A DNA stretch of 33,739 nt from Nitrospinota bacterium (GTDB taxonomy: Bacteria > Nitrospinota > Nitrospinia > JACRGO01): NCBI GenBank assembly GCA_016212295.1, contig JACRGO010000128.1, positions 1 to 33,739 on the forward strand, written 5' to 3'. The translations under genes were made by a program, and so were the position numbers. Within the stretch, counting starts at the first letter, position 1. Each line of letters opens with the position of its first letter. Shown one piece after another: positions 4,074-10,752 of this stretch. Below the pieces are notes generated by a model. The model was not told the origin of the DNA and ran no database searches. It was given only the letters and a program-made list of their open reading frames with translations.

Positions 4074-5357
4074 TTAAAACTCATATCTCAATTGCAGGTA
4101 AATGTTATCATTTTTTTCAAGTTGTCCGAACTGGTTCCATTTCTCACCGCCGCCAAAGATGTTCCCTCCGATTGCAGCCCAGATGCCGTCCGCAAAACTA
4201 TATTTAATTTCAGGGTTCAGCATGTAATCCCCGTCAGATGGGCTGCAGAAAGAAAAGAAAGATAGTTTTAAGGTCTGGTGCATTAGAAACTGGGTAAGCC
4301 TTATAGTTGCAAGTTGATAAAATCTTCTGTCCAATGGAAACCCTGAAGGCTGATTTTCCTTATATTCTGAATAGTTATGCATGTATTCACCATAATATTG
4401 AAGCCCTACTGTAAAATCCTCCCAAAACTGTCTTTGATAACCAATGAGAAATTTTGTCTGTGAATTTGGCACAGTATAATCATTTCCTCCTCCATCCTCT
4501 CTTGAATCATAATATCCTGCCTCAAGGCTCAAAACCCCATCCAGCGCTCTTCCCTGAAGACTTGCGCCGTAGACAGATAGTTCGGGGTAACGGAGTGTAA
4601 TCTTTGTTGGGTTAATAAGATCATCAGGGATCATATAAGGTTTTCTGAAATAGCCTCGGTAAAGATAGAGTGATGCATCAAATCCTTTTATGTCTCTGTA
4701 AACCCTTAAAGCCAATTCAGTATTTTCAAGGGTTGCGGAAGGTTCATTTTCTTCACGGCTTGTAACCGCGGGCATTGGGTCAAACATAAAAAATCTCTTT
4801 GAATCAGGGTAATCATTGGGTTCAAAAAATGGAATAACAATAATCTCAAAAGAGGCAAAATCCGGATAAACGCCGGCCTTTATTCCATCAATCCCCTTTT
4901 TCAGATATTCCAGCGGTCTTCCTGAGAAGAATGCCTCATAGTCTTTCGGAAACACATCGTTTATGAAGATTAAATCTCCCGGCCCCCATGTTATTATCTG
5001 CCTGCCAATCCGCAAATCCCATTTGGCGTCAGTGTAATCCGCATAGCCCTCTCTTATTTCAATATCCGCCTCATCATCAATGTGGCCAAAGGATGCGTCG
5101 GTCTTTATAAATAGATGGAATGGCCCTCTTGATGCATCAAGTTTTAATTGAAATCTCTCTTCCAGCCATTTGAAATCATCCCCATCAGGGTTTTCTGTTG
5201 TGCCAAAGGAATAGTTTCCCTGAAGAAAGCCGTGAATGGAAATATCAGATGCATGCGAGGAAGACAGAATGCGGAAGACAGAATACAAAAAAAAGGCAAT
5301 TAAAAAAACCTTCTTTAGTCTTCTGGCTTCCGGCCTCTGGCTTCTGTATTCCGACAT
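4074..5357 (-). CDS. Outer-membrane beta-barrel protein, partner of MMPL exporter
   Basis: A protein of about 427 residues with an N-terminal hydrophobic export signal (KKVFLIAFFLYSVFRILSSSHA, cleavage probably after SHA), many alternating amphipathic strands rich in Tyr/Phe and Asp/Asn, and a C-terminal LQLRYEF ending in Phe, as expected for Bam-dependent barrels. It contains DLRIGRQIITWGPGD, common in DUF1302-like porin-type proteins found beside MMPL and LolA-like genes. A TTG start at 5369 overlapping the previous stop is possible; ATG 5357 is the first ATG. Codons 1-20 and the signal region lie in a repeat-like tract (5257-5355). The gene is AT-rich compared with the signalling genes. 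Specific cargo is unknown. Confidence 0.78.
   Translation of the reverse strand: MSEYRSQRPEARRLKKVFLIAFFLYSVFRILSSSHASDISIHGFLQGNYSFGTTENPDGDDFKWLEERFQLKLDASRGPFHLFIKTDASFGHIDDEADIEIREGYADYTDAKWDLRIGRQIITWGPGDLIFINDVFPKDYEAFFSGRPLEYLKKGIDGIKAGVYPDFASFEIIVIPFFEPNDYPDSKRFFMFDPMPAVTSREENEPSATLENTELALRVYRDIKGFDASLYLYRGYFRKPYMIPDDLINPTKITLRYPELSVYGASLQGRALDGVLSLEAGYYDSREDGGGNDYTVPNSQTKFLIGYQRQFWEDFTVGLQYYGEYMHNYSEYKENQPSGFPLDRRFYQLATIRLTQFLMHQTLKLSFFSFCSPSDGDYMLNPEIKYSFADGIWAAIGGNIFGGGEKWNQFGQLEKNDNIYLQLRYEF
5257..5355 (+). repeat. Inverted short-word repeat overlapping the barrel gene start
   Basis: Two arms of imperfectly complementary words, GAAGACAGAATGCGGAAGAC (near 5257-5286) and CTTCTGGCTTCCGGCCTCTG (5317-5355), flank an A-rich centre. 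The tract encodes the N-terminus and signal region of the barrel protein on the minus strand. Confidence 0.55.
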
Positions 5358-5361
5358 CTTC

Positions 5362-6150
5362 TCATTCAATCCACTTCCTTGGAGCCTGTTTCAGATACCT
5401 TTCTGAAAAAAGGCTGTCTTCAATGCCAATATCATAATCTGTCTTTACGAAACCCACCTCTGTCCTGTGGCCTGTTTTAAGGTTTTTCATTGTCCTTTTT
5501 GTTACTGTCGGAAATCCCTTTACATCCTTTATCTCATCAGCAGTAAACACCCTGTGAATCTCGCCGGTTTTAGCATAATATTCTTCTTTCAACGGCAGAA
5601 AGTTTGCCTTATCAATCCATGAAAGTTTATGACTATAATCCACATCTCCTGCCTTAGGGGCGCTCGTTATTACATAGCAGTCTCTTTCTCCAAGTTTTTC
5701 TTCCCTTATGATTGCATGCGCATCATCTTCAATATCCCTTCCTGATATGTCCTCATATGTGAAATCAGAGCCAACAAAACTTGAACTCTTATCCTGCGCG
5801 GCAATCCTCCGAACCATGTTTATCGCAGGCACAAAGAGCCACCTGTCGTCATCTTTAGCAGGGTATTTATAGACCATGAACGTCATATCCTTAACATCCG
5901 CGGGCTGGAAAAAATAGATAAAATACCTCTGGTCTCCCCCTGCCTCTCCATAATTTTTCCGGAGCATGGCCATTTCCCTTATCCTCTCCTGTCCAGCCTT
6001 GCTTATGAGTTTCATCATCACCCTTGCCTTGAAATCTTTTCCGGGATAAAGAAAAACCGCCTGCGATTTTTTCATGATTTCATCTCCTGTAAAGGCAAAG
6101 GCATTCAAAGGCAAAAGCATCACGGCTAAAACAATCAAATATCGCATCAT
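5362..6150 (-). CDS. LolA-like outer membrane lipoprotein-sorting protein
   Basis: A 262-residue periplasmic protein with a clear signal peptide (MRYLIVLAVMLLPLNAFA). The body matches the LolA-like group often annotated as outer membrane lipoprotein-sorting protein (TP_0789-like domain): FKARVMMKLISKAG near the start, RYFIYFFQPADVKDMTFMVY, WLFVPAINMVRRI, GSDFTYEDISGRD, DYSHKLSWIDKANFLPLKEEYY, and TKRTMKNLKTGHRTEVGF near the end. These proteins form an open half-barrel that probably carries a lipid between the inner-membrane MMPL protein and the outer membrane. The start ATG 6150 overlaps the MMPL stop (ATGA) and has an AGGAGG site 7 bases ahead. Its gene order with MMPL and the barrel is typical of the family. 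Confidence 0.85.
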   Translation of the reverse strand: MMRYLIVLAVMLLPLNAFAFTGDEIMKKSQAVFLYPGKDFKARVMMKLISKAGQERIREMAMLRKNYGEAGGDQRYFIYFFQPADVKDMTFMVYKYPAKDDDRWLFVPAINMVRRIAAQDKSSSFVGSDFTYEDISGRDIEDDAHAIIREEKLGERDCYVITSAPKAGDVDYSHKLSWIDKANFLPLKEEYYAKTGEIHRVFTADEIKDVKGFPTVTKRTMKNLKTGHRTEVGFVKTDYDIGIEDSLFSERYLKQAPRKWIE

Positions 6151-8447
6151 CTTAAAACCTCCTGTTGTTTTTTTAGCAGCGCCCCTTTAAAAGTCCCTAT
6201 CAAAGCAGGCAGAAATATGAGGGTAACTATCCCCGCAAAGAATGCAAGAAAGCCGAAAAACAGCCCTACTGTTACATAAGGGGTGAGGGTTGCAATCGCC
6301 ATGGGAGAAAAACCAAGGGCTATGACAAGCGCATTCCTGAATATGGCAAGGGCTGGTTCGCCGCCCATTGTCCATTCCATAGCGGATTTTAAATCACCGG
6401 CTGCTTTAAACCTCTCCCTGAATCTTGATATAAAGTGTATTGCAAAATCATCGCCTAAACCGATGGCAAGGGTGGAGCATACTGCTATCGGCATATCATA
6501 TTCCTTTCCCGCAAAACCTATTAGTCCGTAACAGAATGCCACCGAAAATACAAGGGGAAGCATGCCCACAACACCCCACCAGAATGAACGGAATTGAAAT
6601 ATCATCAGGACAAAGACAACCCACCATGTCCCTATGGTTGCCTTAAGCATGCCTGTGACCATGAGTTTCTGCCATGTAATATTAAGATACGGGAGTCCTG
6701 ACCACTCTACTTTAATCCCATCCGGCGGGGGGTTTGACTTTATGTAGTCCTCCGTATATTTTACAACCCCTGTCATATCCCTGTTGTCGCCTGATTTTAA
6801 TTGAACCCATATATTCGCCTTTTTAAAAGCATAGTCAACGAAATTGTCCAGTTCATCAGGGGCTGAAGACATAAGAAAGAGAAAGAGATACTGGCCTATT
6901 GCATCTTTTTCATTAGGCAGTGTTTCGTATTTTCCGTCCTCATCATGAAGCGCATAATTTACCCTTTTTACAACATCCGCCGCGGAGGTTGTTTTTCCAA
7001 CAACGGGATTCTTCTCAAGGCGCCTCTGGAGGCGTTCTATGTAATTCATGACATCCGCCCTTTTTATATCATCCTCATGCGCGCCTTCCACAACAAGATA
7101 GGAGATATACGTCCCGCCCATCAGTTTGTTTAGTTCCCTGTCGGCAATCCTTATTGGATGCTGCTTCTTAAACCACTTTACAGGGTTATCGTTCACAACG
7201 AGTTTTGTAATGCCGTATGATGATATCGCAAGAAGGACCGCGCCAACAGTCACTACGAACATACTTTTGCCAAGGGAAAACCTTCCAATCATGGCAAGCG
7301 CCCTGCTTCCCGCCTCTTTTTTCAGGATAGGTCTCCTTTCCTTGATAAGCATGAGAACCGCGGGCAAAAAGGTCATTGAGAGCAGCCATGCAAACACAAT
7401 TCCAATGGCAACGAATACGCCGAAGACCTTCACGGGAGGTATGTCCGCTAATGCGAGGTCCGCAAAACCTACCGCGGTGGTGATTGGCGCGAAGAAAAGG
7501 GGCTTTGCCAGTTCATCAAAAACCTGAAGTATCGCGGTTTTCCTGTCATTAACCCGCGGCAGTTTTTCATAAAAGTCGCTTAAGATATGCACCGTCTCGC
7601 ATATGGCAATAGGCATCAGGAACACAGGTATCATGGATGACATTATATGGACTGTAAAGCCAGAGCCTATAAGCGCGCCCATTGTCCATGCCACGGAAAG
7701 CATGGCAACCAGCATAGGCGGTATCACAAAGGAAAGCCGTCTAAAAATGATGAAAAAGACAACCATCAAAAGGCCGCCTGCCATAGGCGCAAAAAGCCCC
7801 ATCTGCAGGAACATCTCATAGCCGAAGGTGTCTTCCGCAATAGGCAGCCCCGCCATGTAATATCTTTCAGGGCCGTCTTCTTTTTTATAAATCTCCTTTA
7901 TCTTCCCGCCCACCTCATGCGCAATTGCCTTGTTTTCCAAAGGGACGTAAATGACAACGCCTTTGCCATCGGACGAGACAAGTTTGTCTTTAAATAAGGG
8001 GTTATCAAGGACCTCTTTCTTGAGCCTATCAATATCTTCCTGTGTTTCAGGGACTTTTACCATCGGAGGCCTTACATTTAAAATCCCTTCTTTTGCCACA
8101 ACATTATTTGTAACAGTGAGACTTACCACATCGTCCGCAACAACACCTTTTATATTCAGGAGATCATCCGTAATCCTTTTTATCCTCTTAAGGCTGTCCT
8201 TATGAAATATCCCGTCATCCCTCACTATCCCAAGAACAAGAAACTCCTCTATGTTGAAGGTCTTTTTTACCTCTTTATGAAATACCCTTACAAGCTCATC
8301 ATCCCTGAGCATATTTTCAGGGTCTGTGTCTATCCGTATCTTTGAGAATTGGACAGCGAAGGGGATGGTTATGATGATTGTCAACAAGACGATAAGCCTT
8401 GGTCTGTTTACAGATAAATCAACGAGCCGCATTATTGCCTTTTTCAT
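6147..8447 (-). CDS. MMPL/RND family exporter (inner-membrane permease)
   Basis: A 766-residue RND-superfamily protein with duplicated halves: a first helix (about 15-35), a periplasmic domain with DTDPENMLRDDELV, five to six helices (about 215-370) containing the sterol-sensing-domain-like MPIAICETVHILSDF, then a second helix, periplasmic domain and helix bundle (about 595-755) with the matching LAIGLGDDFAIHFISRF. MMPL proteins use the proton gradient to export lipids, hopanoids, glycolipids or siderophores. The presence of a LolA-like protein and a barrel protein directly downstream suggests lipid export to the outer membrane. It begins an apparent six-gene operon reaching 1880. The ATG at 8447 has only a weak GGA upstream. 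The cargo cannot be told from sequence. Confidence 0.88.
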   Translation of the reverse strand: MKKAIMRLVDLSVNRPRLIVLLTIIITIPFAVQFSKIRIDTDPENMLRDDELVRVFHKEVKKTFNIEEFLVLGIVRDDGIFHKDSLKRIKRITDDLLNIKGVVADDVVSLTVTNNVVAKEGILNVRPPMVKVPETQEDIDRLKKEVLDNPLFKDKLVSSDGKGVVIYVPLENKAIAHEVGGKIKEIYKKEDGPERYYMAGLPIAEDTFGYEMFLQMGLFAPMAGGLLMVVFFIIFRRLSFVIPPMLVAMLSVAWTMGALIGSGFTVHIMSSMIPVFLMPIAICETVHILSDFYEKLPRVNDRKTAILQVFDELAKPLFFAPITTAVGFADLALADIPPVKVFGVFVAIGIVFAWLLSMTFLPAVLMLIKERRPILKKEAGSRALAMIGRFSLGKSMFVVTVGAVLLAISSYGITKLVVNDNPVKWFKKQHPIRIADRELNKLMGGTYISYLVVEGAHEDDIKRADVMNYIERLQRRLEKNPVVGKTTSAADVVKRVNYALHDEDGKYETLPNEKDAIGQYLFLFLMSSAPDELDNFVDYAFKKANIWVQLKSGDNRDMTGVVKYTEDYIKSNPPPDGIKVEWSGLPYLNITWQKLMVTGMLKATIGTWWVVFVLMIFQFRSFWWGVVGMLPLVFSVAFCYGLIGFAGKEYDMPIAVCSTLAIGLGDDFAIHFISRFRERFKAAGDLKSAMEWTMGGEPALAIFRNALVIALGFSPMAIATLTPYVTVGLFFGFLAFFAGIVTLIFLPALIGTFKGALLKKQQEVLR

Positions 8448-8830: not shown

Positions 8831-9499
8831 TTATCCGTAAACCACGGGAAACCCCTTCGCCTCCCAATCCTGGACGCTGTCTTTTAAACGGAATGCCTTG
8901 AACCCCTTCTTGCGCATTATCTCCACGGCCTGGACGGCCAATACACAGTAAGGCCCCCGGCAATAAGCGGCTATTTCCTGTTTCCTGGACAAATTCGGCA
9001 AGTAATTTTCCAGTTCCTTCAAGGGAACCGACAGGGAGCCTTTGATATGCCTCTCCCTGTATTCCTCGATAGGGCGGACGTCCAGCAAGATGGCCGTTCC
9101 TTCCCGGACACGCTTCCATAGCGTGTCGCCGTCTATTTCTTCCATCCCCTTTTTTTCTTTCAGAAAGTCCCGGCTGATTCGCTCCATTTCCGCCAACCGG
9201 TTCTCGGCCAATATCCGCAATTGGCGCAGGAAATCACCCACTAATTGGTCCGCAAGGCGGCAGGTCACATAGAGTCCCTCTTTTTGGCTCTCCACCAGAC
9301 GCGCCGCGCGGAGGACCTGAAGATGCTGGGAGGCGTTGGCGATGGTCAGATTGGTCTCCCTGGCCAGTTCTTCCACGGTTCGCTTTCCCTGGGAGAGGAT
9401 TTCCAGGAGCTCCAATCGCTTGGGACTGGAGATTCCTTTTCCTATCCGGGAAAGTTGCTCATAAATCCGGTCTTTGAAAATCCTGTTTTGACGCCCCAT
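8831..9499 (-). CDS. ArsR-family regulator fused to a rhodanese domain
   Basis: A cytoplasmic protein of about 222 residues. The N-terminal winged-helix domain is ArsR/SmtB-like (SSPKRLELLEILSQGKRTVEELA, then recognition helix TIANASQHLQVLRAARLV). The C-terminal half is a rhodanese domain: LLDVRPIEEYRERHIKGSLSVPL, an active-site loop CRGPYC and closing WEAKGFPVV. Such fusions are thought to sense persulfide or sulfane sulfur; only one Cys (in YVTCRL) lies in the DNA-binding part. ATG 9499 is preferred over TTG 9523 because the TTG lies beyond the operator palindrome (9511-9544) and ATG has AGGG just ahead. It is on the same strand as, and upstream of, the MMPL-MddA-TauE run, which it may control. 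Confidence 0.87.
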   Translation of the reverse strand: MGRQNRIFKDRIYEQLSRIGKGISSPKRLELLEILSQGKRTVEELARETNLTIANASQHLQVLRAARLVESQKEGLYVTCRLADQLVGDFLRQLRILAENRLAEMERISRDFLKEKKGMEEIDGDTLWKRVREGTAILLDVRPIEEYRERHIKGSLSVPLKELENYLPNLSRKQEIAAYCRGPYCVLAVQAVEIMRKKGFKAFRLKDSVQDWEAKGFPVVYG

Positions 9500-9510
9500 A
9501 AACCCTGCCG

Positions 9511-9632: not shown

Positions 9633-9670
9633 AAAATGGACGGGGGCAACGGATATGCCCCGTCCATTTT
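9633..9670 (-). terminator. Rho-independent terminator after the Cys-rich gene
   Basis: Perfect 13-bp inverted repeat, AAAATGGACGGGG and CCCCGTCCATTTT, with a 12-base loop. Read on the minus strand it ends in TTTTCTCTTT, 13 bases past the stop of the Cys-rich gene. The A-rich other side makes it possibly bidirectional. Confidence 0.8.
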
Positions 9671-9682
9671 CGGAACCTGAAC

Positions 9683-9883
9683 TTACTTGTTTTTAAGTTC
9701 CTGGATTCGTTCTTCCGCGCCAGCGAGTTCTTTTTTCAACTGATCACGGTACTCTTCCAACCTTTCCTGTTCCTCTTTTGCGGATATGAAACGTCGGGAA
9801 AAACCACCGCACCCGCATCCGCAGCACCCACAGTTGCATCCCCGGCCTTCAAAAGTCTTTTGCCTTGCGCCTGGTTGACACAT
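9683..9883 (-). CDS. Small Cys-rich protein with C-terminal coiled coil (DUF5320-like)
   Basis: A 66-residue protein. Residues 16-28 form a dense cysteine cluster (CNCGCCGCGCGGF) with seven Cys in the first 25 residues; residues 36-66 form a charged coiled coil (KEEQERLEEYRDQLKKELAG region). The layout resembles small DUF5320-type proteins, but I do not claim membership. ATG 9883 is chosen because AAAGGAGG sits 8 bases ahead; the upstream GTG overlaps that site. The tail aligns with the C-terminus of the neighbouring ArsR protein: CxCGCxGxGx..F, then LxxYxxxLKxE and ERIxE. A copy of the same operator lies in front and a terminator behind. The Cys cluster suggests metal or Fe-S binding; function unknown. 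Confidence 0.8.
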   Translation of the reverse strand: MCQPGARQKTFEGRGCNCGCCGCGCGGFSRRFISAKEEQERLEEYRDQLKKELAGAEERIQELKNK

Positions 9884-9906
9884 TTTTATCACCTCCTTTC
9901 TATATA

Positions 9907-9932
9907 TTTATGTAATTAAATATATACTTAAA
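9907..9932 (-). promoter_or_regulatory. ArsR operator copy 2, before the Cys-rich gene
   Basis: Half sites TTTATGT (9907-9913) and ACTTAAA (9926-9932) are separated by 12 bases. This is the same arm sequence (one mismatch) and the same spacing as at 10385-10410 in front of the ArsR gene. Confidence 0.65.
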
Positions 9933-9953
9933 TATAAACGTAAAAAAAATCCT

Positions 9954-10373
9954 CTACTTCTTTTTGGCTTTTATTTCTATTATTCTTTCCCGGACAATCT
10001 TAATCTCATTTTTCAGTTCCTTCTCGTAATTTTTTAAAGATTCCAAACTTGCCTTCCCAGATTTCTGGTCCTTGAACCTCCCTGTGCCCCGGCATCCACA
10101 GGAACAGACTTCGTTTAATATGGACCGGCATTTTTCCAGGGCGTTCTCGTCTATTGAATAAGGTATCCAGTAGCCTTTTCTCTCGTTCCTGACCAGGCCG
10201 GCTTGCCTTAAAATTTTTAGATGCTGCGATACAGCGGCGGGGGTTATGCCAAGGGCTTCCGAAATATTATTGGCCCCAAGAGGTCCCCTGGATTTCAGTA
10301 TCTCAATGATTTTTACGCGTGTCTCCACGCCAAGCACCTTGAAAATTTCGGAAGGCTCTAAATTTATATTCAT
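9954..10373 (-). CDS. ArsR/SmtB-family regulator with Cys cluster and coiled-coil tail
   Basis: A 139-residue regulator. Residues 8-75 are a winged helix (FKVLGVETRVKIIEILKSRG, GITPAAVSQHLKILRQAGLV, GYWIPYSI wing). Residues 90-94 form CSCGC with another Cys at 82, a likely metal or thiol sensor. Residues 107-139 are a charged coiled coil absent from minimal ArsR proteins. The Cys cluster plus coil resembles the adjacent 66-residue protein. The start ATG 10373 follows a near-consensus promoter, and an operator lies between promoter and gene. The downstream Cys-rich gene, 70 bases on, carries its own operator copy. The ligand could be Zn, Cu, As or another soft metal, or an Fe-S cluster; sequence alone does not decide. 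Confidence 0.88.
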   Translation of the reverse strand: MNINLEPSEIFKVLGVETRVKIIEILKSRGPLGANNISEALGITPAAVSQHLKILRQAGLVRNERKGYWIPYSIDENALEKCRSILNEVCSCGCRGTGRFKDQKSGKASLESLKNYEKELKNEIKIVRERIIEIKAKKK

Positions 10374-10384
10374 GATTTTTTCAG

Positions 10385-10410
10385 TTTAAGTAATTTAGTT
10401 CTCACTTAAA
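10385..10410 (-). promoter_or_regulatory. ArsR operator copy 1, before the arsR-like gene
   Basis: Perfect 7-bp half sites TTTAAGT (10385-10391) and ACTTAAA (10404-10410) with a 12-base spacer, immediately downstream of the -10 element and so covering the transcription start. Confidence 0.72.
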
Positions 10411-10411
10411 T

Positions 10412-10440
10412 AGTATATAGCTCTAAAACCAGTTTGTCAA
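10412..10440 (-). promoter_or_regulatory. Consensus sigma-70 promoter of the arsR-like gene
   Basis: On the minus strand, TTGACA (10440-10435) and TATACT (10417-10412) are separated by exactly 17 bases: a perfect -35 and five of six -10 matches. The gene start lies about 40 bases downstream. Confidence 0.85.
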
Positions 10441-10536: not shown

Positions 10537-10752
10537 GTAACCGTTCACAGGGTTGCCATGAAAAACCAGAGAAAGCCTCATCAGCTATTTTTTTACATCC
10601 CCCTTAATCCCCCTTGCCAAGGGGGAATTAAAACCGATCCCATTTCAGGGGCGTTTCCCGTATTCCCCCTTACCAAAGGGGGACCAAGGGGGATGTTGTT
10701 TCCCCTGCAATAGAGCGTGAAGCTGTTTTTCATGACACCTCGTGAACGGTTA
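10537..10752 (+). mobile_element. MITE-like element with TIRs and 9-bp target duplication
   Basis: The 11-bp ends TAACCGTTCAC (10538-10548) and GTGAACGGTTA (10742-10752) are perfect inverted repeats. Similarity continues inwards about 20 bases (both sides contain CATGAAAAAC). The 9-base AACCATTTT stands directly outside both ends (10528-10536 and 10753-10761), as expected of a target-site duplication. The interior holds CCCCCTTGCCAAGGGGG-type words and no gene. With the ArsR promoter, it fills the 407-base gap between the ArsR and CBS genes. Confidence 0.75.

Follow-up and report, generated by a model that had tools for sequence, protein, structure and literature searches.

The window, that is, the whole stretch of DNA analysed, comprises 33,739 nt from a Nitrospinota bacterium. 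Its minus strand carries a gene for a 139-residue ArsR/SmtB-type regulator followed, after a spacing of 70 nt, by a gene for a 66-residue cysteine-rich coil protein of a kind we call type B. Both genes were found where the initial annotation had placed them, each with a plausible start. Because a promoter precedes the regulator and an inverted repeat follows the small gene, the two form a compact unit, with the following features in the direction of reading:

10412..10440, minus strand: regulator promoter, TTGACA-17-TATACT, sigma-70-like and strong (11/12 consensus)
10386..10409, minus strand: operator 1, TTAAGT-N12-ACTTAA (12/12), beginning 2 nt after the regulator -10
9954..10373, minus strand: ArsR/SmtB-type regulator, 139 aa; winged helix, CxCGC and C-terminal helix, from HTH_5, NF033788 and the AlphaFold model
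10092..10106, minus strand: codons of the regulator Cys cluster C90-S-C92-G-C94, at the end of helix alpha5
9960..10046, minus strand: regulator C-terminal helix, residues 110-138, homologous to the helix of the small protein
9908..9931, minus strand: operator 2, TTAAGT-N12-ACATAA (11/12), in front of the small gene
9892..9897, minus strand: Shine-Dalgarno sequence of the small gene, AGGAGG, 8 nt before the ATG
9683..9883, minus strand: type B Cys-rich coil protein, 66 aa, ATG at 9883
9806..9838, minus strand: small-protein Cys cluster C16-N-C-G-C-C-G-C-G-C-G26, from the alignment and a low-confidence model
9689..9781, minus strand: small-protein helix, residues 35-65, pLDDT >90 for most of the helix
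9633..9672, minus strand: long inverted repeat (core stem 9643-9661), a likely terminator that ends the two-gene unit

The regulator matched HTH_5 in the Pfam scan (3.4e-14) and NF033788, the NCBIfam model for ArsR/SmtB metalloregulators (82.4 bits; cut-off 55), and its fold matches include CzrA, SmtB and ArsR as well as the SqrR structure 6o8k. In the AlphaFold model, helix alpha5 spans residues 76-89 with the cysteine cluster at its end; C90, C92, G93 and C94 are invariant across 70 aligned regulators. The small protein carries six cysteines inside residues 16-25. It had no Pfam or NCBIfam match above cut-off, and no metallothionein family in either library matched the scanned proteins of type B or of the related kinds defined below, B-prime and type A. 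Viral contigs scanned with the small protein and its alignment yielded no relative, and a plasmid scan gave no match to the small protein; with both scans empty, there was no sign of the gene as phage or plasmid cargo.

Directly downstream of the unit, at 8831-9502 on the minus strand, lies a gene for an ArsR-rhodanese fusion, matched by both HTH_5 and Rhodanese, which is possibly a sulfur-linked regulator. Beyond it, positions 4074-8447 of the same strand encode three proteins: an MMPL-type RND transporter, one of 262 aa that no NCBIfam model matches, and an outer-membrane protein of DUF1302-like kind. The last resembles a protein encoded near the regulator in five of the loci surveyed below (L021, L034, L060, L074 and L078), and L166 has an MMPL-like gene close to the pair. 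Upstream of the unit, at 10590-10700, are short C-rich/G-rich inverted repeats (CCCCCTTAATCCCCCTTGCC...CAAGGGGG); similar runs occur upstream of the regulator in L009.

According to the initial annotation, the end of the regulator and the small protein share a cysteine-cluster and coil tail, aligned almost without gaps. The shared tail was confirmed: aligning residues 90-137 of the regulator with residues 16-66 of the small protein gives 22 identities over 54 columns, although the wording on gaps was slightly generous, since the linker contains two. The alignments have in common the hydrophobic spacing L..Y...L...L..V/I...I. The similarity, moreover, exceeds what composition alone would give. 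When the Cys part and the coil part were shuffled separately, each keeping its composition, 1 of 20,000 shuffles reached the observed score; with the Cys part left intact, 6 of 20,000 did so. Profile-profile comparison by HHalign of ten small proteins with 53 long regulator tails gave a probability of 97.85%, E = 6.6e-13 and a score of 60, far above the 100 column-shuffled controls (score <=18).

Searches of whole genomes led to the same two families. When the bacterium's own genome was searched with the small protein, the regulator tail was the sole credible match besides the query itself (E = 0.0013), the next two having E-values of 0.57 and 0.61. An HMM built from type B only and run over 49 whole genomes, with E-values calculated per genome, recovered nine type-B genes and 30 other matches, every one of the 30 in a frame of regulator length (134-156 aa). 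In the fetched loci, which comprise 10,345 ORF stretches, the type-B profile found regulator ORFs and smaller Cys proteins of the same loci. With split profiles, the helix carried most of the signal, detecting regulators from E = 1.7e-5; the Cys part alone placed them at E = 0.35 or worse, which is not significant, so that it is the helix and the full-length profile that support the claim of homology. As judged from sequence, the regulator tail and the small protein are homologous. That two coil-rich, cysteine-rich sequences are merely neighbours by chance might be argued from the single-pair comparison, in which BLASTP of the two proteins alone gave E = 4e-5 with only the coil aligned (14/33). 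Chance is refuted, however, by the genome-wide profile searches, which yield nothing but the small-protein and regulator families, by the HHalign E-value, and by the conservation of both gene pairing and operator described below; we allow it scarcely any probability.

The small protein had further been described as a stand-alone copy of the sensing tail. The homology in that description holds, but the direction of copying is unproved, because small coil proteins remote from any ArsR are similar to the type-B protein too (HHalign E = 1e-24 against type B and 7e-10 against the regulator tail). Excision of the small protein from the regulator would be no more likely than fusion of a small coil protein onto it.

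The pairing recurs in other genomes. A collection of 84,980 species genomes was scanned with an alignment of this regulator family, so that the results apply to this family, not to ArsR proteins in general. The scan returned 80 loci, 79 with enough sequence. A CxCGC-type small ORF with a Shine-Dalgarno sequence lay within 700 nt of 69 of the 79 regulators, as compared to 1 of 238 control genes taken from the same loci. The majority of partners belong to type A, which is about 27-55 aa long and coil-less, with CGCGC and a Lys-rich stretch. Type B, the kind found in the window, occurs at 9/80 loci; L047 and L052 have both types. At Nitrospirota loci the space between regulator and small gene holds a further gene, for a third small protein with a coil, B-prime. 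Strict type B was present in 11 of 395 genomes surveyed from the phylum of L052's genome, a set that overlaps partly with the first; all 11 genes adjoin a CxCGC ArsR, and an acyl-CoA dehydrogenase-like gene sometimes intervenes. In the window's own phylum, the CxCGC DNA pattern alone revealed no further pair; its other matches were in unrelated frames. Looser coil relatives include two that are His/Cys-rich with no ArsR in view (L152, L154) and two that are DUF5320-like (L164, L165). At the near-identical loci L057 and L059 the regulator lacks CxCGC, and the partner position holds a Cys-free ORF, MATKKAKKPAKKVAKKVVKKKK, in a similar Shine-Dalgarno context; this loss in both partners counts as one event.

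Several other genes recur around the pair. An acyl-CoA dehydrogenase-like gene or its remnant stands between or beside the two genes in ten loci (L021, L022, L044, L051, L053, L144, L146, L147, L149 and L162), and a gene for a SelD-like (selenophosphate synthase-like) protein, identified by sequence, recurs nearby with one for a TauE/SafE-like permease (L024, L036, L074 and L078). In L170 (224-840) and L171 (1007-1623) the regulator is of a second type, a PadR that carries N-terminal cysteines; directly after it come a small Cys/His coil protein, which is a type-B coil relative, and an ABC transporter. A CopD-like gene lies near the pair in 29/80 loci (a representative matched PF05425 with E = 4.9e-9). 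The CopD-like neighbours hint at copper, short of proof, since CopD-like proteins are not known to have a settled function.

Operator 1 is the only perfect copy of its motif in the 3.74-Mb genome. Operator 2 is one of four single-mismatch copies, the other three lying inside ORFs or at their 3' ends. Across the survey, an operator matching at least 10 of 12 positions was present in 58/69 intergenic regions between regulator and small gene (~1.8% expected) and in 51/76 regions upstream of the regulator (~2% expected). These two promoters account for 65 of the 71 strong sites in 550 kb of loci; among the six that remain, two stand before B-prime genes, one before an acyl-CoA dehydrogenase-like gene of the same unit and one before a small ORF that is degenerate. 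L044 has a strong operator before its acyl-CoA dehydrogenase-like gene. In most relatives the operator touches or overlaps the -10 of the promoter. A dyad operator overlapping the promoters of the regulator's own gene and its target is a trait that the unit shares with ArsR/SmtB systems, and as a putative binding site it ties the small gene to the regulator by sequence.

Taken together, the pairing and the operator suggest a sense-and-sequester module against toxic metals that is unannotated and widespread among bacteria. Our preferred reading of the window, to which we assign a probability of roughly 0.65, is that of an autoregulated thiol-metal sensor repressor that would control a metallothionein-like sink in the manner of SmtB and SmtA, the two genes making up a self-contained metal-stress unit. 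Repressors of the ArsR type release DNA when metal fills a site. The proposed order of events is as follows: the regulator, as an ArsR/SmtB-type repressor dimer, would bind TTAAGT-N12-ACTTAA, an operator recognized by comparison, after its own -10 and before the small gene, and so repress both genes. The CxCGC site at the end of alpha5 would then take up a thiophilic metal or metalloid, for example Cu(I), As(III) or Cd(II), and the repressor would be released, as expected from other ArsR proteins. The small protein would next be made in quantity and its Cys cluster would sequester the metal; finally, by competing for metal, it would allow the repressor to rebind. Its helix probably dimerises it, which would bring two Cys clusters into one multi-thiolate site, and homodimerisation of this kind would be a simpler role for the protein than mixed coils. 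In most relatives the shorter, coil-less CGCGC peptide may do the same job, often beside a CopD-like membrane protein.

The paired loss of CxCGC in L057 and L059, a single event, counts in favor of this sense-and-sink reading; the low confidence with which the Cys part of the small protein was modelled is a point against the sink. A metal store controlled by the regulator was among the roles first suggested for the small protein, and it fits the shared operator in front of the small gene. The storage function itself, as a regulated thiolate sink, would follow by analogy with AfArsR and AzuR.

The other suggested role, as a decoy or co-sensor, has fared less well. Here the small protein would form hetero-coils with the regulator tail, either pulling the regulator off DNA or handing it metal. 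True homology of both Cys cluster and helix would suit such contact, as would the common hydrophobic spacing and the co-localisation and co-regulation of the genes. Yet 37 of 45 coil regulators have no coil partner, and mostly have a coil-less CGCGC protein instead, whereas in L090 a coil partner adjoins a coil-less regulator. Regulators linked to type B are no more B-like than the rest; a closer similarity of paired regulator tails to the small proteins was sought and not found. A coil partner accompanies 8/45 coil regulators as compared to 1/33 short regulators (Fisher p = 0.07, uncorrected for kinship), and on the regulator tree, built from 92 columns and with many unresolved forks, the coil represents one change (support 82/84) and type B is scattered. 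Given these mismatches between coil and coil-less members of the pair, which run in both directions, the hetero-coil idea is disfavoured and we regard it as unlikely. A broader version, in which small protein and repressor tail are interchangeable metal-binding coil modules in mixed complexes and the product of the operon titrates its own sensor, is likewise improbable; if true, a repressor and its sink would be built from the same part.

Two further readings dispense with the store. The small protein might be a shuttle that delivers metal to an exporter, whether the CopD-like membrane protein or some other, as the frequency of CopD-like neighbours would allow. Small scaffolding metal-binding proteins of the PacL1 type do partner exporters (PMC9374683), and CupA, a chaperone, obtains its copper from the repressor CopY (PMC5646241). 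No CopD-like gene adjoins the pair in this window, however, and most loci have none within 4 kb; a shuttle is in our judgment not a probable explanation. The pair might instead sense thiol or redox signals (persulfide, oxidant). ArsR-family sulfide and redox sensors exist, among them RexT (PMC8960804), SqrR is among the fold matches, and the ArsR-rhodanese fusion is adjacent. But the CxCGC and CGCGCC clusters are unusually thiolate-dense for a redox switch, and metal-handling, CopD-like neighbours recur, which leaves redox sensing very unlikely.

The nearest regulators by identity (~70%) come from a Scalindua bin and from Desulfobacterota/Deltaproteobacteria bins, and the matches found in the window's own phylum are short-tailed and only 45-52% identical. 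Because the closest relatives thus belong to other phyla, the pair was probably acquired by horizontal transfer, with the qualification that bins can be mis-assigned. The small proteins themselves constitute an unannotated family, thiol-rich and ~30-70 aa long, easy for gene callers to miss and absent from the family libraries searched. The operator connects this family with a single clade of metal sensors, present in sulfate reducers, Nitrospirota, Nitrospinota and other bacteria, and allows the regulon to be predicted from sequence. A sensor that has the same module as its regulated product is an unusual case.

Related arrangements are known. In Synechococcus, the ArsR/SmtB repressor SmtB controls the metallothionein SmtA. 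In Anabaena, the ArsR-family repressor AzuR, which uses an alpha5-type site, controls the metallothionein NmtA via a 12-2-12 inverted repeat (PMC8790569). The window resembles both systems in its ArsR-type winged helix and in the promoter of its small Cys-rich gene, which has an inverted-repeat operator. Unlike theirs, its small protein is matched by no metallothionein model and has the same tail as the regulator, whose own site, CxCGC, lies where alpha5 ends. Regulator and small gene stand in tandem, each with its own operator, whereas azuR is not encoded next to nmtA. AfArsR, in which three C-terminal cysteines bind As(III), likewise has its cysteines grouped within a single chain, in a short C-terminal segment (PMC11212059); its motif is NCCHGTRDC and not CxCGC, and it is not known to have a homologous small partner. 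The DUF5320 family (PF17253) is similar in being made up of small proteins with a C-terminal helix of comparable pattern; however, the window's 66-aa protein did not match it, and the distant PadR-linked relative of the type-B coil scored 21.7 bits (E = 4.6e-4), below the family cut-off of 27. CopY of the pneumococcal CopY/CupA system is not ArsR-type, and its proteins are unrelated to the window pair. The likeness is one of arrangement, a repressor and a metal-binding protein being encoded together in one operon (PMC5646241).
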